Assembly (NCBI GenBank): GCA_024643725.1
Contig: JAHEMJ010000012.1
Location: 62,001 to 126,000 of the forward strand
DNA from: Crocinitomicaceae bacterium
Lineage (GTDB): Bacteria > Bacteroidota > Bacteroidia > Flavobacteriales_D > Crocinitomicaceae
Length of the DNA stretch: 64,000 nucleotides
Reading direction: 5' to 3'
The position numbers were made by a program, and so were the translations under genes. Shown one piece after another: positions 1,995 through 59,195 of the stretch (the stretch's first letter is position 1; each line of letters opens with the position of its first letter). The notes below the pieces were generated by a model. It did no database searches. It was not told where the DNA came from and worked only from the letters and a program-made list of their open reading frames with translations.

Positions 1995-2762
1995 ATGAAT
2001 TCTTTACGCGCTTTTTCCCTCCTTTGCTCTTTCCTTTGGATCAGTTCCTTTGGATTTGCTCAACCCAAGGAAAAAGATGAATCCATTAGTACGCCTTTAG
2101 TGGGAATCCACTGGGGTGGAAACCTACCAGGAGGAGATTTGCTTGCCCGGTATGGTTACTTAAATAACCTTGGATTTTCCGCAGGATACAAATTGGAGAA
2201 TCAGTGGTACTTCGGTGTAGATGCCAACTTCATCTTTGGTAACCAGGTTAAAATAAACGGTCTGTTTGATGCTTTACTGGATGACAAAGGAAACATCACC
2301 GATGTCAATGGTACAATCGCGAAAGTATTGGTGTATCCACGTGGATTTAACGCAAATTTTTCTGTCGGACGTCTATTCCCAGTTGGAAAGTCGAACCAAA
2401 ACTCGGGAATTTTAGTCCATGCAGGCGCGGGATACTTGCTACATCACATCCGCATCGAGACAAATGATCAGGTTATACCTGAAATCGAACTACATTACAA
2501 ACGCGGCTATGACCGCATGACAACTGGACTGAATTTCCACCAATTCGTTGGCTACTCCTTCCTTAATAATGGAGGTCCACTCAATTTCTATGCTGGATTT
2601 TACTTCCAACAAGGTCTGACGTATAATCGTCGCACCATCAACTACGACCAACCAAATGTGCCGGTATCTACCGCTATGCGCATTGATCTTCAGACAGGCA
2701 TCCGCCTCGGTTGGTACATTCCCTTTTACTCGAAGAAACCGAAGGATTTTTATTATAACTAG
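1995..2762 (+). CDS. Predicted outer-membrane beta-barrel protein, unknown function
   Basis: 255 residues. The start ATG directly follows the kinase stop codon, so the pair is probably co-transcribed and translationally coupled. Residues 1-22 form a signal peptide ending FGFAQ. The rest alternates aromatic and Gly-rich strands (for example LGFSAGYKLENQWYFGVDA and LQTGIRLGWYIPF), as in small Bacteroidota porin-like barrels. I do not recognise a named family. Its position behind a Wzc-type kinase suggests a role in exopolysaccharide or envelope assembly, but that is inference from context only. Confidence 0.7.
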   Translation: MNSLRAFSLLCSFLWISSFGFAQPKEKDESISTPLVGIHWGGNLPGGDLLARYGYLNNLGFSAGYKLENQWYFGVDANFIFGNQVKINGLFDALLDDKGNITDVNGTIAKVLVYPRGFNANFSVGRLFPVGKSNQNSGILVHAGAGYLLHHIRIETNDQVIPEIELHYKRGYDRMTTGLNFHQFVGYSFLNNGGPLNFYAGFYFQQGLTYNRRTINYDQPNVPVSTAMRIDLQTGIRLGWYIPFYSKKPKDFYYN

Positions 2763-3240
2763 GTTAATGTGCCAGTGTGCTAGTGTGCTAGTGTGCCAAT
2801 TGGGTTATGCCCGGTTCTTCGCTTTGCTCAGATAGGCTAATGTGCTTCCGCCGTGGCGGATTGCCAGTGTGCTAATGTGCCAATTGGGTTATGCCCAGTT
2901 TTTCGCTTTGCTCAGATAGGCTAATGTGCTTCCGCCGTGGCGGAAAGGCGGAGCGAATGGTTTTAGGTAAATAGCAAAGAATAAGCACACAACCAAAAAA
3001 AACGATTCGAAATAAACGAAGAATGACCATGTAGGCGCAGGGCATGCCCTGCGCCTACGAAGATTCCCGTGGGAACCCAAACGTGTAAAAACAGAATAAG
3101 AACCGATCTTCGCTTGCGAAGAGCTAAATCCTATACAGGAGTACATTGGCAAATTAGCATCCCGAAGGGTCGGCTCCGCGACTGCGGAGAGGCATTAGCA
3201 CATTGGCACATTAGCAAATTAGCACATTATCCCTATTTTT
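2763..3240. repeat. Composite intergenic repeat block A (8-bp arrays, 84-bp duplication, palindrome)
   Basis: This 478-bp non-coding stretch carries several layers of repeats. A GTGCTA(A/G)T-type array lies at 2766-2801. Two 68-bp copies, 2793-2860 and 2877-2944, stand 84 bp apart and differ at two bases by eye. A 28-bp perfect palindrome is at 3031-3058. Arrays in the opposite orientation (TTAGCACA type) are at 3143-3160 and 3194-3230. GC-rich inverted bits (CCGCCGTGGCGG) occur at 2849-2859 and 2933-2943. Open frames that cross it are repeat-encoded and not believable genes. The right-hand array runs straight into the waaA promoter region. Confidence 0.85.
3031..3058. repeat. 28-bp perfect palindrome, copy 1
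   Basis: The left half GTAGGCGCAGGGCA is followed by its exact reverse complement. The same 28 bp occurs at 9983-10010. Both copies sit inside array-bearing intergenic blocks. As RNA or single-stranded DNA it would form a 12-13 bp hairpin with almost no loop, which resembles a REP-like element more than a terminator, since no T-run follows. Confidence 0.85.
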
Positions 3241-3241
3241 A
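3194..3241 (+). promoter_or_regulatory. Repeat array abutting the probable waaA -7 box
   Basis: A TTAGCACA-type array ends in CACATTATCCCTA (3223-3235), which leads directly into TATTTTTA (3234-3241). That is one base off the Bacteroidota -7 consensus TAnnTTTG, and lies 14 bp before the GTG start at 3256. The same 13-mer junction occurs before purF and before the HYC_CC_PP-like gene on the other strand. Promoter activity is inferred. Confidence 0.4.
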
Positions 3242-3255
3242 CACAAAACTTCAAC

Positions 3256-4455
3256 GTGTCCATTATCTACACTTTTCTCATTCGATGTTACGGAGTCATG
3301 CTTCGAATGGCGGCGCTGTTTCATCCCAAAGCGAGGGCATGGGTGGAAGGACGCAAGCATTGGCAAGAAAAGTTGAAGGGTGTCCTTCCGGCAGATCGTC
3401 CGATTTTATGGTTTCATTGTGCTTCACTGGGAGAGTTTGACCAAGGAATGCCCTTGATGAAGGAACTAAAGGAGAAAGATCCATCGGTGTTTTTGTTGGT
3501 GAGTTTTTTCTCGCCTTCCGGAATGGAACATTATCAAAAGCGCGAGCCCATCGTGGATGCCGCGTGTTATTTGCCCTTGGATACGCCTACGAATGCACAA
3601 GAATTTATTGACTTGGTTCGTCCAGTGAAAGTGGTGTTTGTGAAGTACGAATTTTGGCCGAATTTTCTTCAGGCTTTGGGACGTCAACACATCGAAACAA
3701 TGGCTGTTTCTGCGATTTTTCGTCCAAAGCAAATCTATTTTCGTTGGTACGGCACATTTTTCCGCAATGCCTTGAAAACGGTGCAACATTTTTACGTGCA
3801 AAATGCCGAAAGTGGACAGTTACTGAGCAGCATCGGCATCGATCAATACAGCATTTCAGGCGATCTCCGGTACAAACGCGTTATGCAGGCAAAGGTATTA
3901 GCCCTTCAATCCTCCAATGAGCGAATTGCAGCTTTTTCGCAAGGACATCCAACTTTAATCCTCGGGAGTTCTTGGCCAAAAGAAGAAGGAATCCTGAAGG
4001 AGGCCCTACCGCAACTCGGAAAAATCAAGGTCATCATCGCACCACACGACGTGAGTGAAAAACACGTAGCGTCCATTCAATCTCTTTTCCCCAATGCCAT
4101 TCGATACAGTCAGCTAAACGAAGAGTACGAGGAAAGTCAACTTGCGGAAGCATCTATTTTGCTCTTAGACACGATTGGACAATTGAGTTCCGCCTACCGT
4201 TACGGAACCATAGCCTTCATCGGCGGTGGATTCACGGGTAATTTACACAACATCCTCGAACCAGCCGTTTATGGATTGCCGCTTTTATTCGGTCCTAAAC
4301 ACAGTAAATTTCCGGAAGCGCAACTATTCCTTCAACAAGGCTTCGCCCTCGAAGTCAATCATGCCTCGGATTTCACCACAGCATTCCATTCTTTACTTGA
4401 AAAGTCGGAAGTCCTCCGCGTGGACATGGAAGCATTTATGCGGTCGAAAGGGTGA
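3256..4455 (+). CDS. waaA: 3-deoxy-D-manno-octulosonic acid (Kdo) transferase, GT30
   Basis: 399 residues, the usual WaaA/KdtA length. The enzyme transfers Kdo from CMP-Kdo to the lipid A precursor at the inner face of the cytoplasmic membrane. Residues 1-22 form the membrane anchor. WFHCASLGEFDQ near residue 55 holds the conserved catalytic Glu region. GGGFTGNLHNILEPA near residue 322 and the LLFGP that follows are the donor-binding C-terminal signature. I chose the GTG at 3256 because the first ATG (3298) would cut the anchor in half. It converges with purF across repeat block B. Organisms with this gene make Kdo-containing LPS. Confidence 0.93.
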   Translation: MSIIYTFLIRCYGVMLRMAALFHPKARAWVEGRKHWQEKLKGVLPADRPILWFHCASLGEFDQGMPLMKELKEKDPSVFLLVSFFSPSGMEHYQKREPIVDAACYLPLDTPTNAQEFIDLVRPVKVVFVKYEFWPNFLQALGRQHIETMAVSAIFRPKQIYFRWYGTFFRNALKTVQHFYVQNAESGQLLSSIGIDQYSISGDLRYKRVMQAKVLALQSSNERIAAFSQGHPTLILGSSWPKEEGILKEALPQLGKIKVIIAPHDVSEKHVASIQSLFPNAIRYSQLNEEYEESQLAEASILLLDTIGQLSSAYRYGTIAFIGGGFTGNLHNILEPAVYGLPLLFGPKHSKFPEAQLFLQQGFALEVNHASDFTTAFHSLLEKSEVLRVDMEAFMRSKG

Positions 4456-4583
4456 TTAGTGCCTAGTGATTAGTGTCTAGTTCCGGTATCTAGATTCATT
4501 GAGGATTTGAGTTTAATCTCTACCGTCTACCGAAAACCATTTGCGGAGCAAACCAATCATTAGCACACTGGCACATTAGCACA
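4456..4583. repeat. Intergenic repeat block B between convergent waaA and purF
   Basis: The left part (4458-4483) is a TAGTGATTAGTG-type low-complexity run related to the stretch at 10243-10262. The right part holds a TTAGCACA-type array (about 4560-4586) that runs into the purF stop codon at 4584-4586. The motif GCAAACCAATCATTAGCAC just before the array recurs in similar form near 6832 and 10180, so it may mark an element boundary. No terminator hairpin is evident. Confidence 0.7.
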
Positions 4584-6485
4584 TTAGTAAGCTCGCTCAT
4601 TCCTTTTCTCCACCCAATTAATGAACGCTTTGTTCACTACCTTGTTTCCACCAGGTGTTGGATAATCTCCAGTAAAATACCAGTCTCCAAGGTGATTTGG
4701 ACAAGCGACATGTAGATTCTCTACCGTTTGGAAGACGATTTCTACTTCTGCATTTATGGTAGATGGAGTCAACAGTTCAGCGATTTTAGCGGAGATTTCC
4801 TCGTTGCTAAATGGCGCATAGATTTCTTTGACGAAATTGCGTACTTGTTCTTTCGGAAGATTCACTTGCTCTAAGCATTTCTCGTATACTTCTTTGATGA
4901 CAGAGTCCATTTTACGGTCGCGCAATAATTGAATCGCTGCTTCGAAGGCAATGAAATCACCCATTTTCGCCATGTCGATTCCGTAGCAATCTGGGTAACG
5001 GATTTGCGGTGCGGATGAAACAACCACAATTTTCTTAGGTGCGAGTCGGTCCAAAATGCGCAAAATACTTTGCTTTAAGGTCGTTCCGCGTACAATGCTA
5101 TCGTCGATAACGATGAGGTTATCCGTTCCTGGACGCACACTTCCATACGTAATGTCATATACATGTGCGACAAGGTCGTCACGTGAATCATCTTGGGTGA
5201 TGAAGGTACGTAACTTCGCATCCTTGATCGCGATTTTTTCAATGCGTGCACGGCGGTTGATGATTTCCGAAATTTGTTCAGCACTAGCCTCGTTTCCAAG
5301 TGCTTGAATTTGTGCAATCTTTTGTTGATTGAGGTTTTCTTCGAGTCCTTTGATCAATCCGTAAAACGAAACTTCAGCCGTATTTGGGATAAAAGAGAAG
5401 ACACTGTTGTCGAAATCGTAATCAACGGTTTTCAACACTTGGTCAACGATTAATCGTCCCAACGCTTTGCGTTCTTTGTAAATATCTGTATCGGATCCGC
5501 GTGAGAAGTAAATGCGCTCGAATGAACATTTTTTAATTTCTCGTGGCGCGTTGATCATCTCCTCTTTGACTTCGCCACTTTTTTTGACAATTAGTGCATG
5601 TCCAGGTTGAAGTTCGTGAATTTGATCACTCGTCAAATTAAATGCCGTTTGAATCACTGGACGTTCAGAAGCTACGACACAAATCTCTTCATCTTCGTAC
5701 CAAAATGCTGGACGAATCCCATTCGGATCGCGTAAAACGAAGGCATCTCCGTGTCCGAGTAAACCGGCCATCGCATATCCACCATCCCAAACTTCAGATG
5801 CTTTCTTCAAGATCTTCACTAAGTTTACCTCTTTGGCAATACGTGCATAAATTTGATCTTTCGAATATCCAAGTGACTTGTAATGCGCGTATAATTCGTC
5901 GTTTTCAACATCGAGGAAATGTCCGATTTTCTCTAGTACCGTAACCGTATCACTTTTCTCCTTCGGATGTTGCCCAAGGTTCACTAAGGCATCGAAAAGC
6001 TCATCAACATTCGTTAAGTTAAAGTTTCCCGCAACGACAAGGTTTCGAGTAATCCAGTTATTTTGACGTAAGAATGGGTGACAACTTTCGATCGAATTTC
6101 GTCCAAAAGTTCCGTAACGCAAGTGTCCGAGGAAAAGTTCACCTGTAAATCCTGCGTTCTTTTTTAAGTAATCGACGTTTTTTAAATTCGCCGGATTCTC
6201 TTGTTGAATTTGCTGAAATTTCGCGTTGATTTGATCGAAAATATCTTGTGTAGGATTTTTCTTAATGGACCGCGTTCGTGAAATATAGCGGTTACCTGGT
6301 TCCATATCGAACTTGATGTTCGCTATCCCAGCTCCATCTTGACCACGGTTGTGTTGTTTTTCCATTAGGAGGTGCATTTTGTTAATGCCATACAGCGCTG
6401 TGCCGTATTTCTCCAAGTAATATTCCATGGGTTTTTTTAGTCTCAATAGGGCTATTCCACACTCATGTTTTATCGGATCACTCAT
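4584..6485 (-). CDS. purF: Amidophosphoribosyltransferase (PurF), long Bacteroidota form
   Basis: 633 residues. It catalyses the first step of purine synthesis, making phosphoribosylamine from PRPP and glutamine. After an 8-residue leader the sequence reads ECGIALL, so Cys9 is the likely N-terminal nucleophile exposed by propeptide removal. HNRGQDGAGI (about 45) and GHLRYGTFG (about 120) are Ntn-amidotransferase signatures. VIDDSIVRGTT (about 455) is the PRPP-binding loop. Many PurF proteins are about 470-500 residues; this one has extra sequence, and I recall similar long forms in Bacteroidota. A -7 box (TATCTTTG) lies just upstream, at the edge of a repeat array. Confidence 0.9.
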   Translation of the reverse strand: MSDPIKHECGIALLRLKKPMEYYLEKYGTALYGINKMHLLMEKQHNRGQDGAGIANIKFDMEPGNRYISRTRSIKKNPTQDIFDQINAKFQQIQQENPANLKNVDYLKKNAGFTGELFLGHLRYGTFGRNSIESCHPFLRQNNWITRNLVVAGNFNLTNVDELFDALVNLGQHPKEKSDTVTVLEKIGHFLDVENDELYAHYKSLGYSKDQIYARIAKEVNLVKILKKASEVWDGGYAMAGLLGHGDAFVLRDPNGIRPAFWYEDEEICVVASERPVIQTAFNLTSDQIHELQPGHALIVKKSGEVKEEMINAPREIKKCSFERIYFSRGSDTDIYKERKALGRLIVDQVLKTVDYDFDNSVFSFIPNTAEVSFYGLIKGLEENLNQQKIAQIQALGNEASAEQISEIINRRARIEKIAIKDAKLRTFITQDDSRDDLVAHVYDITYGSVRPGTDNLIVIDDSIVRGTTLKQSILRILDRLAPKKIVVVSSAPQIRYPDCYGIDMAKMGDFIAFEAAIQLLRDRKMDSVIKEVYEKCLEQVNLPKEQVRNFVKEIYAPFSNEEISAKIAELLTPSTINAEVEIVFQTVENLHVACPNHLGDWYFTGDYPTPGGNKVVNKAFINWVEKRNERAY

Positions 6486-6504
6486 GGTTTGTTGATGTTT
6501 GTGG

Positions 6505-6527
6505 CAAAGATAGGGATAATGTGTTAA
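6505..6527 (-). promoter_or_regulatory. Probable purF -7 box joined to a repeat array
   Basis: Read on the minus strand, CACATTATCCCTA is followed by TCTTTG, forming TATCTTTG (positions 6512 to 6505), a full match to TAnnTTTG, 19 bp before the ATG. The repeat array occupies the place where a -33 box would be; no good TTG is seen at the expected spacing. Confidence 0.5.
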
Positions 6528-6879
6528 TGTGCTAATGTGCTAATGTGCTAATTTGCCAATGTGCTAATTGGTAGTAGTTGGCTCCTCGCTTTGCTCGGAT
6601 AGGATCATAGAATCGATCTAGGCATAGGGAATGTCCTACGTTTGGTTTATAAAAAATTCAACCCCTTCAGGGTTGTGGATAATGGGTAATTGTTTATTGT
6701 ATGGAGGTTTGACCCCTTCAGGGTCGGTAATTCTAGTGAACAGTGCTGGTATCTATTCAAATGGTGAACGGTTGTTAAATTCTACACTCAACAATAAACT
6801 TTTTGCTCCGCCGCTCCGCCTCGGCGGAGGAGCGAACAAATCATTAGCACACTAGCACATTGGCAAATTAGCAAATTGT
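6513..6879. repeat. Composite intergenic repeat block C
   Basis: A forward array of near-perfect GTGCTAAT units (about 6517-6569) comes first. It is followed by a CGCTTTGCTCGGATAGG segment (about 6586-6602), also seen twice in block A. Next is the ~148-bp module with two hairpins (6651-6800), then a CCTCGGCGGAGG palindrome near 6818-6830, and an array in the opposite orientation (6843-6876) that runs into the HMA-gene stop. The layout forward array, palindromic core, inverted array matches block D. Confidence 0.85.
6651..6800. repeat. ~148-bp interspersed module, copy 1
   Basis: It contains CAACCCCTTCAGGGTTG (6659-6675) and GACCCCTTCAGGGTC (6711-6725), two short hairpins with the same core, starting 52 bp apart. 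Copy 2 (10026-10173) keeps both hairpins at the same 52-bp spacing and ends alike in CAACAATAAAC. Between the hairpins the copies share TGTATGGAGGTTTGACC. Neither copy encodes a recognisable protein. Confidence 0.8.
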
Positions 6880-7209
6880 CTAATGTCCATTCGGCTGGCA
6901 ACATTTCGGCAACTTCTCCACATCTTCTTTCGCGGCTTTCACCTCGTCAGCGTCATAGCCAATTTTGGCAATCGTTTGTTTGATCGCAAGCAAATCGATT
7001 TTCTTTGGGTCGTATTTTACTGTGACGATTTTCGTTTGGTCGTCTAACTCTGCGAATTTGATGCCTTTCGTGTAATTCAACTTGCCTTCAATACGCTCCT
7101 TGCAATCACCACATTGTGCATTGGTTTGAATTTGACTGGTCATTGTTTTTTGTCCGAAGGACAGGCTGCTCATCAGCACGAATAATAGGCTTACAATAGT
7201 TGTTTTCAT
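6880..7209 (-). CDS. Secreted heavy-metal-associated (HMA) domain protein
   Basis: 109 residues. A signal peptide (1-19, ending SFGQ) places it in the periplasm, unlike the cytoplasmic CopZ. The HMA fold is seen from about residue 24 to 92, with the metal-binding pair Cys33-Gly-Asp-Cys36, and a second cluster Cys103-Cys104 at the C-terminus. It lies 12 bp downstream of the TonB receptor gene, so the two are probably one transcript. I infer that it binds a soft metal such as copper brought in by the receptor; the metal cannot be told from sequence. Confidence 0.85.
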   Translation of the reverse strand: MKTTIVSLLFVLMSSLSFGQKTMTSQIQTNAQCGDCKERIEGKLNYTKGIKFAELDDQTKIVTVKYDPKKIDLLAIKQTIAKIGYDADEVKAAKEDVEKLPKCCQPNGH

Positions 7210-7221
7210 ATGAAATGGTTA

Positions 7222-9429
7222 TCAGTTATCAGTTTTTTGTTTAATGGCAAATCGCATTCCTGCATAGACATTCCATCCCATAATTGGACCCCAAACGCGG
7301 TTGGCGTCGAACTGTGATCCAAATGGATTCTGTGCATCGATGATAGGATTTACTTGTTTAAAGTTCGCTAAATTTTCACCGCCTAGGTAAAAATTCCATT
7401 TTTTGTAGATATGCGTGATCTGTGCATTGACCATTGGGTAGACTGGACTTTGTTCATCGTGCTGTTCTATGCCTGATGCCTCAAGGATGACCGGCAATCG
7501 TGAGGAACCGTAAACCGTACACGTTGCATCGAATTCCCAGCGTTTGTTGCGCGTGCGATAGGCCACATTGATGAATCCACGGTTCTTTGGAATCATGACC
7601 TGTTGACGCATGACACCATCGTACATGGCTTTGACATCCAAATGTTTGTACGCTAAACGCACATCGAAATTTTTTCGCAACGCATACGACCATTCCACTT
7701 GAAAACTGTTGGAGTAGGAGGAATGGGCTAAGTTCTGGAAGACAATGGCATCCAAGGCAGCATCTCGGTCGACAATCAACTGATTCTGAAATAGGGTATG
7801 ATAGAAGTCCAAGCTAAGATTCCCCGTTTTTTCAAAAAGAGTAAAATCTTTCACCAAAGAAACGCCTGCATTCCACGAAATCTCTGGCTTGATTTCCGTC
7901 GGTGCGATCCACGTTTTTGAATTCGCCAACAAGGAAACATTGTCGATCATGTAATTCGGTACGCGCCATCCTTTACCTGCTGTAACGCGCAAATCAGCTC
8001 GTTGGGTCAATGCATATTTCGCATGAATCCGTGGGGAGAATTGTCCACCATACGTAAGGTGCTGGTCGTATCGTCCACCGATTACGGCATTCATTCGTGC
8101 TCCGCTATACGTATATTCAGCAAAAATTCCTGGGACAATTTCCGTGCGCACTTGTTGCAATAAATCGGCTTTTTGTTCGATCATCAGTCCGACAAAACTC
8201 GCTCCCACCTTGATCTTGTGGTCGCTTGTTCCGAGAATATCGTCGTAAATCGCATTCACATATGCTCGTTTTTCCTTTCCTTCAAACGTCCGATGGCCAA
8301 ACGCACCATTCATTTCTTGGTACTTCAAGTTGTACACCACACCAAAGGAACGCAGTGGTTTTTTGCTGAAAAATCCTGTCTTCGCATACAGGTCGACGTG
8401 ACGTGCGTTCATATGCACACCATAGCCCACAGGACTATCTCGGAAATACGTATTTTGTCCACCCAATTTTCGGTCTTGATACGCATTCACGCCAAATTGC
8501 GCCTCCATTTTTTTACCTTGAAATTGCCAGCGATTCATCAACGCCAAGTTATCGCCCATCGGAATATCTCGAAATCCATCGCCATTGTGATCAATGTTCC
8601 CTAACATGGAGGAAGCGTGTCCGAGTAGTCCAGTGCTCCATTTTTCATTGAGTTTCTTTCCGGAATTCACATTCAATTCTGACCGTCCAAAGCGGTTTTG
8701 ATAGGCATTCACGTAAAGTGCCTCCATCTCCGAAGGTTTTTTGATTTCCAAGTTCACGAGTCCAGCCATGGATTCATATCCATTCACAACGTTTCCAGTT
8801 CCCTTGGTGATTTGGATGGATTCGATCCACGTTCCCGGAATGGACTGAAGTCCAAAAGAGCTTTCGAGTCCACGCAAATAGGGGATATTTTCCAGCTGTA
8901 TTTGCGTATAGACGCCATCGAGACCCATCATCTGAATTTTCTTTGCGCCAGAAACGGCATCTGTGATGTTCACATCCACCGAAGCATTCGTTTCAAAGGA
9001 CTCCGATAAATTGCAGCACGCGGCTTTTCGCAATTCCCCCGCATTGATTTCCTCCACATGCAGTGTTTTCATTTTAGAAATTTGGTGGGATTTTTGACGC
9101 AATTGATACACAATTTCCTGTTTGGTGGAAATTGGGATCATCAGAATGGTCAAGGAGATGAATCGATCTTCCTTGGTCACGGGAATGGAATCGGAGATAT
9201 ATCCCATTGCGCTAATCACCAACGTGTCTGGTAATTGTTTCGGAAGGACTAATTCGAAGCGTCCTTCTTTATTGGAAAACACTCCTTGATTTGCTCGAAT
9301 CAAGCGAATTTTAGCATTTTCCAGCGGAAAGTTTTTCGTCGAATCTTGGCGTAAAACAATTCCTTTTAATTGAGCATTTGTGGTGGATGCCGTGAAGAAG
9401 AGGAGCATCCCCAAAAGATATAATTTCAT
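7222..9429 (-). CDS. TonB-dependent receptor, probably for a metal or metal complex
   Basis: 735 residues. Seen in order: signal peptide (1-19), a carboxypeptidase-regulatory-like beta-sandwich (about 20-105), a plug domain (about 120-225, including IQMMGLDGVYTQIQLENIP and ITKGTGNVVNGYESMAG), then a beta-barrel ending in an aromatic strand. Such receptors import ligands across the outer membrane using TonB energy. The neighbours, a secreted HMA protein downstream and a Cys-rich HYC_CC_PP-like protein upstream, suggest a metal substrate. An AACCN motif at the plug start (about residue 137) might itself bind metal. No regulator is adjacent. Confidence 0.88.
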   Translation of the reverse strand: MKLYLLGMLLFFTASTTNAQLKGIVLRQDSTKNFPLENAKIRLIRANQGVFSNKEGRFELVLPKQLPDTLVISAMGYISDSIPVTKEDRFISLTILMIPISTKQEIVYQLRQKSHQISKMKTLHVEEINAGELRKAACCNLSESFETNASVDVNITDAVSGAKKIQMMGLDGVYTQIQLENIPYLRGLESSFGLQSIPGTWIESIQITKGTGNVVNGYESMAGLVNLEIKKPSEMEALYVNAYQNRFGRSELNVNSGKKLNEKWSTGLLGHASSMLGNIDHNGDGFRDIPMGDNLALMNRWQFQGKKMEAQFGVNAYQDRKLGGQNTYFRDSPVGYGVHMNARHVDLYAKTGFFSKKPLRSFGVVYNLKYQEMNGAFGHRTFEGKEKRAYVNAIYDDILGTSDHKIKVGASFVGLMIEQKADLLQQVRTEIVPGIFAEYTYSGARMNAVIGGRYDQHLTYGGQFSPRIHAKYALTQRADLRVTAGKGWRVPNYMIDNVSLLANSKTWIAPTEIKPEISWNAGVSLVKDFTLFEKTGNLSLDFYHTLFQNQLIVDRDAALDAIVFQNLAHSSYSNSFQVEWSYALRKNFDVRLAYKHLDVKAMYDGVMRQQVMIPKNRGFINVAYRTRNKRWEFDATCTVYGSSRLPVILEASGIEQHDEQSPVYPMVNAQITHIYKKWNFYLGGENLANFKQVNPIIDAQNPFGSQFDANRVWGPIMGWNVYAGMRFAIKQKTDN

Positions 9430-9500
9430 ATTAACGTTTATTCATGAATACTAATTTCGGCACATGGATTTCCATGCACAAAAGGCATCAATGAACTCGT

Positions 9501-9914
9501 TTATAGGCGAAATACACAGTGTTGAATGAGAATGTCTCGTCCGCTTTCCCTGATCGGCGGTGGATCTTCCCATGTTTGAACGATGGAAAGTTCTTTCGTT
9601 TGGGACTTAGGGAAAGAATATACTGCGGTTTTTACTGGACAAACAAATGCAATTGTTGGAACGGAAAGTGCTTGACTCTGCACGTATTTTTCGTCCAACT
9701 GTACGACTGTTTTTTCATCGTGGCAACAATTTTTCTTCTTTTCCTTCTGGCAACAAGGAGGAAGGTTTGATATTTTCTCTTGACAATGCGACTGTTGATT
9801 GATGAAAAACGATGTAAATACACCATCTTCCTCACAGGCATGTGTAAACACAGGAATACCGATGTTCCCAAAGAACAGCAATAGACTTAAAAACAAGAGG
9901 GTGAGTGTTTTCAC
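9501..9914 (-). CDS. Cys/His-rich HYC_CC_PP-like small secreted or membrane protein
   Basis: 137 residues from a GTG at 9914. The open frame runs further upstream to 10034, but that part is encoded by the repeat array and holds no signal peptide, so I reject it. From the GTG there is a strong hydrophobic signal or anchor (TLLFLSLLLFFGN), then HACEEDG, HCQEK, PPCCQK and NCCHDE, a run of Cys and His fitting metal binding. It resembles the HYC_CC_PP family that I recall next to metal-linked TonB receptors in Bacteroidota. A -7 box (TACCTTTG, 9926 to 9919) lies 4 bp upstream of the GTG, so the mRNA would be almost leaderless. Confidence 0.7.
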   Translation of the reverse strand: MKTLTLLFLSLLLFFGNIGIPVFTHACEEDGVFTSFFINQQSHCQEKISNLPPCCQKEKKKNCCHDEKTVVQLDEKYVQSQALSVPTIAFVCPVKTAVYSFPKSQTKELSIVQTWEDPPPIRESGRDILIQHCVFRL

Positions 9915-9918
9915 GAGA

Positions 9919-9940
9919 CAAAGGTAGGGATAATGTGCTA
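9919..9940 (-). promoter_or_regulatory. Probable -7 box of the metal-related operon, joined to a repeat array
   Basis: On the minus strand the array ends CACATTATCCCTA and continues CCTTTG, giving TACCTTTG at 9926-9919. This is the same junction as at purF (6505-6527) and, with one mismatch in the -7 box, at waaA. No clear -33 TTG is seen 19-21 bp upstream, where the array lies. Confidence 0.5.
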
Positions 9941-9982
9941 ATTTGCTAGTGTGCCAATTTGCTAATGTGCTAATTGGTAGAA

Positions 9983-10010
9983 GTAGGCGCAGGGCATGCC
10001 CTGCGCCTAC
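9983..10010. repeat. 28-bp perfect palindrome, copy 2
   Basis: Identical to 3031-3058 over all 28 bases by eye. It is flanked on the left by a GTGCTAAT array and on the right by the hairpin module. Confidence 0.85.
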
Positions 10011-10025
10011 CATTGTTTTTTTTTT

Positions 10026-10173
10026 AAAATTCAACCCCTACAGGGTTGTGGATTATTGGTGCTTGTTTAATGTATGGAGGTTTGACCCCTTCAGGGTCGG
10101 TAATTCTAGTGATCAGTGTCGATATCTATACGAATGGTTGTTGGGTGTTAAATTTCTGCCATCAACAATAAAC
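10026..10173. repeat. ~148-bp interspersed module, copy 2
   Basis: Hairpins CAACCCCTACAGGGTTG (10032-10048) and GACCCCTTCAGGGTC (10084-10098) start 52 bp apart as in copy 1 (6651-6800). By eye the copies agree at roughly three quarters of positions, with small indels between. Confidence 0.8.
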
Positions 10174-10267
10174 CTTTAGCGCAGCAAGCAAATCATTGGC
10201 ACTCCGCCGCGGCGGAAGCACACTAGCACATTAGCACATTAAATTAGTGCCTAGTGCTCAGTGCCGA

Positions 10268-10984
10268 TTAAACCAACGTAAATAAATCTTTCGTACCTAA
10301 AATGCGTGTCACGGTAAATCCTTCGGCGTAATTTGCGCCAATTGGACGTCCATATTGCATCATACGTCCTTTGATGAATTGGAAAAATTCTTCGCCAGAG
10401 ATCGGTGTGTTTGGCTCTGTGGAAGTTGGATCGTAAAATTGGGAACGGAAGGCTTTGATGACTTCGATTTTCTGTTCCATGTACGGACTCACGTCCATCA
10501 CGATGTCCGGATGTGTGTAATGATCTTGAATGTAATGCAAGACCAAGCGTGGACGATGAGCGGGAAGAGAAATGCCGTCGACCTCTGTTTCAATTTTTCG
10601 GAGTCCAGCAAGAAAACATGCGTCGGACACCAATTTTCCACCACGTCCATGATCGGGATGACGGTCGCTCAAGCAATTTGCCATCACGATTTCCGGTTGA
10701 TGAATACGGATTTGTTCAATGATCTTACGTTTGTTTTCTTCGTTGATTTCGAAAAATCCATCTCCCATGTTTAGGTTCTTACGAACAGCTAATCCCATGA
10801 GCTTGCCAGCAGCTGCGGACTCTGCGTAACGGTCTTCAACCGATCCACGTGTCCCCAATTCTCCCTCCGTCAAATCAACGATTCCGATTTTCTTACCAAG
10901 AGCGGCATAATGCAACAAGGTACCAGAAGCGGATAATTCCACATCGTCAGGGTGAGCGGCAAAGGCTAGGATATCTAATTTCAT
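10268..10984 (-). CDS. bshB1: Bacillithiol biosynthesis deacetylase BshB1
   Basis: 238 residues. It belongs to the LmbE/PIG-L family and removes acetyl from GlcNAc-malate in bacillithiol synthesis. The zinc site is seen as AHPDD (residues 10-14) and HPDHG (about 110-114). TEGELGTRGS near residue 40 and the DVSPYMEQKIEVIKAFRSQF region are typical of the BshB1 subgroup. Full length. It stands alone: gcvP upstream ends in a terminator, and a repeat block follows. No other bsh gene is in the window. Its presence implies bacillithiol as the main low-molecular-weight thiol. Confidence 0.9.
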   Translation of the reverse strand: MKLDILAFAAHPDDVELSASGTLLHYAALGKKIGIVDLTEGELGTRGSVEDRYAESAAAGKLMGLAVRKNLNMGDGFFEINEENKRKIIEQIRIHQPEIVMANCLSDRHPDHGRGGKLVSDACFLAGLRKIETEVDGISLPAHRPRLVLHYIQDHYTHPDIVMDVSPYMEQKIEVIKAFRSQFYDPTSTEPNTPISGEEFFQFIKGRMMQYGRPIGANYAEGFTVTRILGTKDLFTLV

Positions 10985-50747: not shown

Positions 50748-52068
50748 TTTTATCGCCTTGTGGATTCGTGTTTTTGTTTGGTCCTTTCTGACCGTTACCT
50801 CTTGGTGGATGGTTTCCTTTTTTCTGTCCGGCATTTGCGGGATTCCCACCTTTCGGTGCTTGATTCGGATTTGCCGCTTTCTGCGCTTGATTGGGATTCG
50901 AAGCTGGTTTCACGCCTTGTGCCGTTGCAGCTGGATTTGCATTGTTGCTCGGGCGTTTTTTGTTTGGACGTTTTTTCTTCACAAAACTTTTTTCGAAACG
51001 ATTTACGCTATCTTGGCCAACCACATTTTGGTAGCCAATTTCCACCACTTTTTCGACTTTTGTGAATTCCAACAAATCTTTCGGTTTAACACCGTCTTTG
51101 TTCAATTTTTTAATTTCTGCCACACGTTCTGGACTCAGGGCAATTGTCCCCATTTCGCCTGGGTATGCGTACCAAATAATGCGTTTGAATACATCCGTTT
51201 TAATGTGGAAAGCATCTCCTTTTTCTGTGTGTAACTTGGTGTCTGTTTTTGGAAAGGATTTAATCGCATCCAAATACATATCTAGTTCATAATTCAAACA
51301 ACACTTCAATTTTCCACATTGTCCAGCAAGTTTTTGTGGATTCAAGGAAAGTTGTTGGTAGCGTGCTGCTGACGTAGAAACAGAACGGAAGTCTGTCAAC
51401 CAAGTTGAACAGCACAATTCACGTCCACAAGAACCAATACCGCCTAAACGAGAGGACTCCTGACGAGATCCGATTTGGCGCATTTCAATGCGGACTTTGA
51501 ATTTATCCGCCATGTCCTTGATTAATTGACGGAAGTCCACGCGTCCTTCAGCCGTATAATAAAACGTTGCTTTACTTAAATCACCTTGGTATTCCACATC
51601 GGAAATTTTCATATCCAAGTTGAGGTTCATAGCCAAGGTGCGTGATTGAGACATCAAATCTTTCTCAAGGGAGCGACCTTTAATCCACTTGTCAATTTCT
51701 TCTTGATTGGCAATGCGAAGAATTTTCTTTGCTTCCATCGCCTTGAAATTTGGTGCTTTCTTTTTTACTTGAATACGCGCTAATTCACCTGTTACGGAAA
51801 CAACCCCCACATCGTAACCTGGTGCTGTATCGACAATAACTAAATCACCAATTTGCAAGGATAGATGTGATGCATTTCGGTAAAATGCTTTTCTGGAATT
51901 TTTGAATCGAACTTCTACAATATCGTATGGGGCTTGTCCGGCTGGTAAGGCAATATTCGCTAACCAATCGTACACTTCTAATTTATTACAACCGCCGCTG
52001 CTGCAAGTACCATTGTTCTTACAACCCTTCGGTGTTCCACCGCCACTACTGCATGATGAGCAACCCAT
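50734..52068 (-). CDS. ricT: PSP1-domain (RicT/YaaT-like) protein with Cys-rich start and basic low-complexity tail
   Basis: 444 residues. The PSP1 core (about 45-290) shows LGGIGSCGRELCCSTWL (about 208) and GKLKCCLNYELDMYLD (about 250), the Cys pairs known in RicT to hold Fe-S with its partners. The N-terminus (CSSCSSGGGTPKGCKNNGTC) is Cys/Gly-rich. The last ~75 residues are Lys/Asn/Pro-rich repeats (NPNQAQKAANPNQAPKGGNP), likely disordered and perhaps RNA-binding. RicT in Bacillus joins an RNase Y regulator complex; whether that holds here is unknown. Confidence 0.87.
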   Translation of the reverse strand: MGCSSCSSGGGTPKGCKNNGTCSSGGCNKLEVYDWLANIALPAGQAPYDIVEVRFKNSRKAFYRNASHLSLQIGDLVIVDTAPGYDVGVVSVTGELARIQVKKKAPNFKAMEAKKILRIANQEEIDKWIKGRSLEKDLMSQSRTLAMNLNLDMKISDVEYQGDLSKATFYYTAEGRVDFRQLIKDMADKFKVRIEMRQIGSRQESSRLGGIGSCGRELCCSTWLTDFRSVSTSAARYQQLSLNPQKLAGQCGKLKCCLNYELDMYLDAIKSFPKTDTKLHTEKGDAFHIKTDVFKRIIWYAYPGEMGTIALSPERVAEIKKLNKDGVKPKDLLEFTKVEKVVEIGYQNVVGQDSVNRFEKSFVKKKRPNKKRPSNNANPAATAQGVKPASNPNQAQKAANPNQAPKGGNPANAGQKKGNHPPRGNGQKGPNKNTNPQGDKNANS

Positions 52069-58284: not shown

Positions 58285-58322
58285 ATTAGCACACTAGCAC
58301 ACTAGCACATTAGCACATTAGC
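58285..58322. repeat. 8-bp array directly against a start codon (block E)
   Basis: Four to five units ACA(C/T)TAGC with period 8 end immediately at the ATG at 58323, between two genes of one operon. It is the same family as blocks A-D and in the same orientation as the waaA-side array. Any ribosome-binding context of the next gene is therefore repeat-derived. Confidence 0.85.
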
Positions 58323-59195
58323 ATGAACATTTTAAAAACATACAAAATCTACATCGGCGGACAATTTCCAAGAACGGAATCTGGACGCACGTATGTCGTA
58401 AAGAACTCCTCGGGAGATCCCATCGCCAATGTTTGTCAGTCCTCGAAAAAGGATATTCGCAATGCCGTGCAAGCGGCTCGAAAAGCCTTTGGAACTTGGT
58501 CCGAGCGCAGTGCCTTTAATCGAGGACAGATTTTATACCGTATGGCAGAAATGTTGGACGGACGAAAAGCACAGTTCATCGAAGAATTGATGCAGCAAGG
58601 TTCATCTGCGGATGCAGCCGCTCAGGAAATAGAACGATCCATTGATCGCATCGTTTATTACGCAGGATGGTGCGATAAATACCAACAACTTTTGAGCGCT
58701 GTGAATCCCGTGAATTCATCGCATTTCAATTTTTCGGTGTCTGAATCAACAGGTGTTGTTGGAATTGTAGCAGATGAAGCGTCCAGTTTAATTGGAATCA
58801 TTTCTCAACTGATGCCGGTTATTGCTGGTGGGAACACGGCTGTATTGATTGCTTCGGAATCACTTCCATTATGTTCCATCAGCTTCGCTGAAGTGTTGGA
58901 AACATCTGATTTGCCAGCAGGAGTGGTGAACATTTTAACAGGATCTGCCGACGAAATGCTTCCGACTTTAGCGGAGCACATGGATGTTAATGCCTTATTC
59001 CTTTCAAATGCTTCCAAGGAAATGGTAAAATCCACACAGCTTGCAGCAGTTGATAATTTGAAAAGAGTGTTGGTTTTAAACGAAGATTGGACCGATGAAT
59101 CTGCACAAGGAATCAGATTTATTTCCTGTTTTCAAGAAATCAAAACAACATGGCATCCCATTGAACAGATTGGCGGAGCGACGAGTACGTATTAA
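58323..59195 (+). CDS. Truncated aldehyde dehydrogenase-like protein without catalytic domain
   Basis: 290 residues. It aligns by eye with the N-terminal NAD-binding part of aldehyde dehydrogenases (YKIYIGGQFPRTESGRTY, RKAFGTWSERSAFNRGQILYR, GIVADEASSLIGIISQLMPVIAGGNTAVLI (cut at core), LPAGVVNILTG). The ELGGK Glu and the catalytic Cys segment are absent. The frame ends cleanly and no leftover catalytic domain follows, so it is either a stable half-protein, perhaps a subunit of the complete enzyme upstream, or a decaying gene. Confidence 0.78.
   Translation: MNILKTYKIYIGGQFPRTESGRTYVVKNSSGDPIANVCQSSKKDIRNAVQAARKAFGTWSERSAFNRGQILYRMAEMLDGRKAQFIEELMQQGSSADAAAQEIERSIDRIVYYAGWCDKYQQLLSAVNPVNSSHFNFSVSESTGVVGIVADEASSLIGIISQLMPVIAGGNTAVLIASESLPLCSISFAEVLETSDLPAGVVNILTGSADEMLPTLAEHMDVNALFLSNASKEMVKSTQLAAVDNLKRVLVLNEDWTDESAQGIRFISCFQEIKTTWHPIEQIGGATSTY

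Follow-up and report, generated by a model that had tools for sequence, protein, structure and literature searches.

Why does the same 13-bp sequence, CACATTATCCCTA, join arrays of 8-bp repeats to a -7-like promoter box at three genes, waaA, purF and a HYC_CC_PP family gene (hereafter HYC), within one 64,000-nucleotide stretch of a Crocinitomicaceae bacterium genome (GenBank assembly GCA_024643725.1, contig JAHEMJ010000012.1, positions 62,001 to 126,000 of the forward strand; hereafter the window)? An earlier note on this DNA had proposed that the repeat element brings part of a promoter with it, or targets promoters, and that slippage in 8-bp steps could switch expression. We consider it probable that the arrays instead belong to an intergenic island repeat of gene boundaries, which halts where a boundary must be kept, rather than to a mobile promoter switch. 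The promoter adjacency is real but secondary, and there is good reason to regard the 13-mer as the junction of a repeat-hairpin arm with the gene's own promoter, being neither the element nor a promoter module itself. The anatomy, orientation, folding potential and distribution of the islands were directly observed, as was a purF box without an array, and from these we infer what the islands may do.

The shared 13-mer and its arrays

The sequence CACATTATCCCTA was found exactly, on the strands and at the positions listed in Table 1, at the end of the array at all three genes as the earlier note had read it, and at each site its final TA opens a -7-like box (TATTTTTA at waaA, TATCTTTG at purF and TACCTTTG at HYC). 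At up to two mismatches the window held those three sites alone; at the same threshold shuffled windows gave a mean of 1.18 matches and 11 of 100 shuffles reached three, and the weight therefore rests on the exactness of all three sites. The own genome (2,712,947 bases in 17 contigs) contained three exact copies, all of them the window copies, where the expectation was below 0.1 (a rough estimate by hand with uniform base composition) and a reversed control pattern gave none. All copies lie within 40 bp upstream of presumed start codons, so that the promoter link passed the genome-wide check proposed with it, a check that is no independent test because the three sites already noted are all the copies that exist.

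Parsed in register, the 13-mer consists of CAC, the end of an 8-bp unit, followed by ATTATCCC and by the TA that opens the box; ATTATCCC is itself a degenerate final array unit, two bases off ATTAGCAC. The arrays are built of an 8-mer that reads TAATGTGC on the strand leaving a gene and ATTAGCAC on the strand entering one, and the window contained 30 matches to ATTRGCAMATTRGCAMATT at up to three mismatches compared with a shuffle mean of 0.56. Chance likeness of the three sites was ruled out by the exact matches, the genome control and these array-versus-shuffle counts.

The surroundings of the arrays were surveyed in sampled stretches of the own genome (G000) and of two relatives (G014 and G247), which were mostly chosen for holding arrays, so that the fractions of gaps given below are not genome-wide; genes were called as simple open reading frames (ORFs) with presumed start codons, and the own genome and the others are drafts. 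Forty-five arrays of at least two units were present in the own stretches, and 129 of the 163 arrays in the three genomes pointed toward the nearer gene edge. Gaps holding both orientations were arranged outward ('-+') in 25 cases and inward ('+-') in one, and a further 48 array gaps held a single orientation. ORF stops ran on as TA[AG]T[GTC]TGC in 7/117 (own genome), 7/67 (G014) and 10/80 (G247) cases versus 0/311 in the own background, and 24 of 49 stops were in register with the array, at least four of them trivially since the ORF runs into the array; orthologues were counted more than once in both of these counts. The purF stop itself (TAA or TAG by species) runs into a unit or close variant in nine array-bearing genomes. 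On their 5' side, arrays run into ATG or TTG or halt at a -7 box. Edges were approached to within 10 nt by 35/85 stop-facing and 11/78 start-facing arrays, and to within 40 nt by 51 and 27, respectively, with inner arrays of islands included and starts presumed. ORFs were cut at arrays, so that the finding of no arrays inside genes was built in and was dropped as evidence.

Arrays were present in 54/265 co-directional, 16/41 convergent (stop-stop) and 4/34 divergent (start-start) gaps. The preference for stop-stop over start-start gaps is the opposite of promoter targeting, and the suggestion that arrays target promoters was abandoned on this ground and because a box follows only 3 of the 45 own arrays. 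Across the three genomes TAnnTTT[GA] occurred within 45 nt past the array in 18/164 cases (own 3/45, G014 4/48, G247 11/71); 12 of these 18 were taken as start-side, and six G247 cases were dropped by judgement because their boxes lay on the stop side or within arrays or repeats.

Boxes, tails and gaps at orthologous genes

The boxes at purF and HYC fit TAnnTTTG, and that at waaA ends in A (5/6 fixed bases). In 412 kb of own sequence TAnnTTTG was found 78 times in 289 upstream regions versus 22 times on the opposite strand. That arrays adjoin a -7 box of the Bacteroidetes type at these three genes, all sharing one 8-bp register, was borne out, and the boxes are presumably in use as promoters. 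Bases favoured at -8 to -4 before TAnnTTTG in the own genome were A, A/T, A/T, A/T and T; with the box placed at -12 to -5, the ATTAT of the tail lands at -20 to -16. In RNA-seq of Flavobacterium johnsoniae the AT-rich motifs have their centres at -18 and -28, and the -33 element was much less evident (PMC6847099). The AT-rich block that tends to occur in this promoter class can account for the retention of ATTA and of the register at the junction, with no need for a promoter-carrying element.

Array and box were in register (phase 0) at five loci, namely the three genes of the window plus one locus in G014 and one in G247. By inspection, about five other array-box loci did not keep the register, and in G229 a locus resembling that of G247 stood at phase 1. 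A strict register as a rule was dropped on account of these further pairs, and is kept as a tendency only, for which the AT-rich block upstream of the box could account.

Boxes were also present where arrays were not. Fifteen of 24 purF relatives without an array had TAnnTTTG within 45 nt of the start, including all four members of the sister group (G007, G010, G012 and G015), and the purF box therefore predates the array. TATCTTTG was present in all nine array-bearing purF upstream regions, and in G111 the purF upstream region reads ATTATAAG-TATCTTTG. At HYC, TAnnTTT[GA] occurred in all five genomes without an array directly upstream (two from the array group and three others), three of them with exact TAnnTTTG. 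At waaA the array-group upstream regions carried TAnnTTTA in 9/9 genomes. The gap between waaA and the upstream gene (measured from the start nearest the aligned start) was -1 to +11 nt in 15 of the 16 genomes without an array in that gap (G007 being the exception), and was 493, 87 and 609 nt in three array genomes; an additional genome had no upstream gene on its locus. At waaA, then, a -7-like box occurs together with the island, between genes that nearly touch in most relatives without an array there. Thus, the proposal that the element brings part of a promoter fails at purF and, with fewer data, at HYC, and keeps some ground at waaA, where island and box co-occur.

The exact 13-mer was uncommon even among array-bearing orthologous upstream regions (waaA 3/9, HYC 2/10, purF 1/9), and the orthologous tails varied (TCCC, TACC, TCAC and TAAC at purF; TCCC, TCCA and TTCC at HYC); the identity at three genes is therefore partly a species accident over a looser pattern. 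A scan of 84,980 genomes, from which records very near the window's genome were possibly omitted, with the longer probe GCAMATTRGCAMATTATCCCTA returned three loci, two waaA orthologues and one HYC orthologue, all upstream of the gene. Their upstream regions are identical to those of G227, G247 and G239, and they appear to come from these draft genomes. As the own purF copy is not matched by the probe, orthologues of purF may have escaped the scan. That the 13-mer itself transposes was rejected, there being three copies in the genome and longer-probe matches elsewhere only at orthologous genes. One record labelled Chryseobacterium gleum (L110, CAMAPI010000041.1) has the same HYC upstream region as G239, and its label is probably wrong.

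Distribution and competing explanations

At up to one mismatch, the array pattern was found in 43 of 240 genomes of the family, with at most one match per genome for the reversed control. Fourteen genomes of the own genus (own included) had 19 to 160 matches; among the other 29 matching genomes, 25 had 1 to 3, and G111, G112, G113 and G143 had 12, 8, 8 and 29, respectively. In a PurF tree of 29 rows, from which four array-rich genomes with no or partial PurF were left off, nine array-rich own-genus genomes formed one group (support 95/97) beside the group of four, in which no array was found by the pattern search; G211 (19 matches), G111 and G143 fell outside the nine. The islands are densest in one subclade, and they separate genes that lie almost in contact in most relatives. 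At up to two mismatches the own genome gave 146 matches (reversed control, 2), 106 of them within the initial 73 kb of contig 7, while other own sequence amounting to 360 kb had 1. Ten proteins encoded in this part of contig 7 were tested; among them are UDP-sugar dehydrogenases, an epimerase, an ABC transporter and glycosyltransferases, as in a polysaccharide cluster.

The explanation we favour, a gene-boundary island repeat, may be set out as follows. The islands have arms of 8-bp units that point outward, and the outermost arms often end where something has to be preserved, be it a stop codon, a start codon or a -7 box. In the three islands of the window the arm facing the start halts at the box, and its last ATTA coincides with the AT-rich block that tends to precede the box in this promoter class, which would hold both register and sequence. 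Islands most likely spread and change length as non-coding repeats, through slippage, recombination and the copying of modules between gaps, and selection at gene boundaries would fix where they stop. On this view the word shared by three promoters marks where a repeat came up against a promoter older than itself, and is no evidence for a mobile promoter or a switch.

That the element carries promoter parts or targets promoters, with 8-bp slippage switching expression through -33, we now regard as very unlikely. In its favour, all three copies of the 13-mer abut a -7-like box, island and box occur together at waaA, and unit number differs among orthologous waaA arrays; by inspection, loss of a unit at waaA or HYC would exchange TTAG or CTAG for TTGG at -33. 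At 24 to 17 bp before the box the arrays have ATTAGCAA (waaA), ATTAGCAC (purF) and ACTAGCAA (HYC), and none of these three units offers TTTG or TTG as a -33 element. At purF, however, the third, fourth and fifth units counted from the box share the sequence ATTAGCAC, so that gain or loss among them leaves the -33 region as before, and the claim that slippage alters -33 keeps a footing only at waaA and HYC. The boxes without arrays at purF and HYC, the scarcity of boxes after own arrays, the preference of arrays for gene 3' ends in the sampled stretches and the weakness of the -33 element in F. johnsoniae (PMC6847099) also count against this reading. Hardly more probable is that the islands are mobile elements resembling miniature inverted-repeat transposable elements (MITEs), with the arrays as terminal inverted repeats inserted at TA sites, namely the stops TAA and TAG and the -7 boxes. 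MITEs are non-coding elements with inverted ends that lie between genes, have constant termini and duplicate their target. The islands are likewise non-coding and intergenic with inverted ends, TA opens both the stop codon and the box where these meet the array, the cores of the purF and HYC islands show an 85% match over 155 bp, and an island gap stands where the relatives' genes nearly touch. Unlike MITEs, the islands have ends that vary (ATTAAC, ATTATCCC, ATG and others) and cores that are mosaic: two core queries found no full-length recurrence elsewhere in the DNA searched, with pieces shared with other gaps.

Folding bears on a somewhat stronger rival, although still one we think rather unlikely, according to which the islands act as RNA structures. 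In co-directional gaps, pairing of the arms would bring the stop codon of the first gene and the start or promoter of the next together at the base of a single hairpin, and expression would thereby be terminated, stabilised or coupled. RNA folding z scores were -7.64 (purF), -8.36 (waaA) and -6.89 (HYC), with 0/100 shuffles as good for each, and the stem base is formed by the outer arms (33, 37 and 35 pairs for purF, waaA and HYC, first 60 versus last 100 nt). The arms were outward in 25/26 two-orientation gaps, 23 of these 25 being co-directional; core matches in the own contig 7 follow the direction of the neighbouring ORF, palindromic pieces excepted, to the extent that simple ORF calls show it; and inner flanks differ by side, the CAAATC type occurring at 23/85 stop-facing versus 4/78 start-facing arrays and the other type at 7/85 versus 16/78. 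Because inverted copies of one repeat pair by construction, however, the folding is potential and not a sign of selection; arrays also lie in 16 convergent and 4 divergent gaps, and Rfam matched no known RNA family at the islands. No plasmid copies of the purF island were found. The islands may nonetheless have a possible role in transcript structure. A broader version, in which a lineage of Flavobacteriales would have remade many of the gaps between its genes into a repeat-based gene-boundary system, of 8-bp-repeat hairpins whose feet are a stop codon (often supplied by the unit) and the -7 box or start of the next gene, and whose arms act on transcripts or DNA ends and are no inert filler, seems to us doubtful to about the same degree.

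Several findings weigh against the gene-boundary island repeat that we prefer. The abutment is partial, with 35/85 stop-facing and 11/78 start-facing arrays within 10 nt of the faced edge, and 34/163 arrays do not point at the nearer one. Nine of the 24 array-free purF relatives lack exact TAnnTTTG, and 0/9 array-group genomes have it at waaA. A gap upstream of waaA is not unique to islands because the array-free G007 has one of 1317 nt. Phase 0 at five loci exceeds what a randomly set boundary would give, and the fixed orientation of cores relative to gene direction hints at some function in the transcript, which a neutral account would not call for. Arrays also occur beyond the subclade, in G211, G111-G113 and G143 (8 to 29 matches), the route by which they reach new gaps is a proposal only, and the genomes are in many contigs, so that repeats may be misassembled.

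Comparison with described systems, as given in the accessible parts of the cited papers, yields partial likenesses. The purF and HYC boxes match the Bacteroidetes sigma-A promoter (-33/-7 TTTG/TAnnTTTG; PMC6847099, PMC7366714, PMC9723704), and as in that class the box occurs more often on the coding than on the opposite strand in upstream regions of the own genome; the waaA box departs from it by an A for the final G, and the -33 unit of the arrays by its lack of TTTG or TTG. Like repetitive extragenic palindromic (REP) elements of the GTAG/CGTC-tagged kind (PMC3733652), which are dispersed palindromic repeats near gene ends, the island cores hold short palindromes; unlike them, the part that supplies the stop is a tandem 8-bp array, with inverted pairs in many gaps, and also abuts starts and -7 boxes. 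The TAACTGA heptamer repeats of Beggiatoaceae, cyanobacteria and five Bacteroidetes are similarly short tandem repeats that lie between genes, have a period other than a multiple of three and are patchily distributed (PMC4679880). In the Beggiatoaceae genome they lie mostly just upstream of start codons, and some of the Bacteroidetes have relatives with shorter, repeat-free gaps (PMC4679880). Their unit is 7 bp and runs mostly forward to starts, whereas here an 8-mer (TAATGTGC/ATTAGCAC) forms outward pairs and supplies stops; the window unit accordingly does not belong to the tandem TAACTGA repeats. No description of outward gene-boundary arrays or of the unit sequence was found in the titles and abstract beginnings returned by searches of an open-access library. 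The islands lend themselves to the questions of what brings short repeats into the gaps between bacterial genes, what turns them outward and how pairs of genes survive being separated, within one close genome group in which fast-changing island cores lie beside conserved genes, next to four array-free genomes.

Features of the window and further repeats

Table 1. Array, junction, box and island positions in the window (islands include the flanking stop and start codons)
Feature	Position	Strand
waaA island, between 255-aa gene and waaA; hairpin with outer arrays paired, z -8.4	2760..3258	+
Stop-facing arrays (2769-2800, 2861-2884) past TAG stop of 255-aa gene; left arm of waaA island	2769..2884	-
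Start-facing array upstream of waaA, 4 units ATTRGCAM	3194..3225	+
13-mer at waaA: CAC of last unit, ATTATCCC, TA of box	3223..3235	+
waaA -7-like box TATTTTTA, final base off consensus	3234..3241	+
Array toward purF stop; TAA is first three bases of unit (TAATGTGC, gene strand)	4559..4590	+
purF island, between HMA-domain gene and purF; hairpin, z -7.6	6483..6882	-
purF -7 box TATCTTTG	6505..6512	-
13-mer at purF	6511..6523	-
Start-facing array upstream of purF, 6 units	6521..6568	-
Stop-facing array toward HMA-domain gene stop; second arm of purF island	6843..6874	+
HYC island, between PIG-L gene and HYC_CC_PP gene; hairpin, z -6.9	9912..10270	-
HYC_CC_PP -7 box TACCTTTG	9919..9926	-
13-mer at HYC_CC_PP family gene	9925..9937	-
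Start-facing array upstream of HYC_CC_PP family gene, 5 units	9935..9974	-
Array toward PIG-L gene stop; second arm of HYC island	10222..10237	+
Lone array between two co-directional ORFs, ending ATTAGC-ATG (presumed start codon)	58285..58324	+

Within the island upstream of waaA, positions 2778-2944 comprise two 84-bp tandem copies (95% matches), a likely recent duplication. Inside the core of the purF island, ARAGORN called a tRNA-Glu at 6635-6728; Rfam at its gathering score found no tRNA there, and because the call lies within palindromes of the CCCTTCAGGG type, which the HYC island has as well, it is probably spurious.

A second tandem repeat, TAGTGCC/TAGTGAC-like, is present at 4452-4481 and near waaA in G247, G227 and G229 (L125, L126 and L124). 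It begins at or just past the waaA stop codon or, in G229, at the stop codon of the gene before waaA, and with this behaviour it looks like a sister of the 8-bp arrays. Gaps beside waaA of other species hold small genes (L112:3973-4377 and L111:1473-2100), which by eye encode a four-helix-bundle protein and a putative nucleotidyltransferase/HEPN pair.

Elsewhere in the own genome, at 49332-49815 of contig 7 (L040:9332-9815), a carbamoyltransferase gene is immediately preceded by a higher-order repeat of ~52 bp, in which copies of the palindrome CCCGAAGGRTCGGGA are interleaved with arrays. At about 51990-52030 of the same contig (L040:11990-12030), and near 8888 (-) of L167 in G247, a glycosyltransferase coding sequence seems to start inside an array, by eye with TTG in G247 and TTA/ATC in the own genome, either an unusual start codon or a changed start. 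Back in the window, repeats at 1803-1882 code for a GYGYGY run near the C-terminus of a tyrosine-kinase-like polysaccharide export protein.

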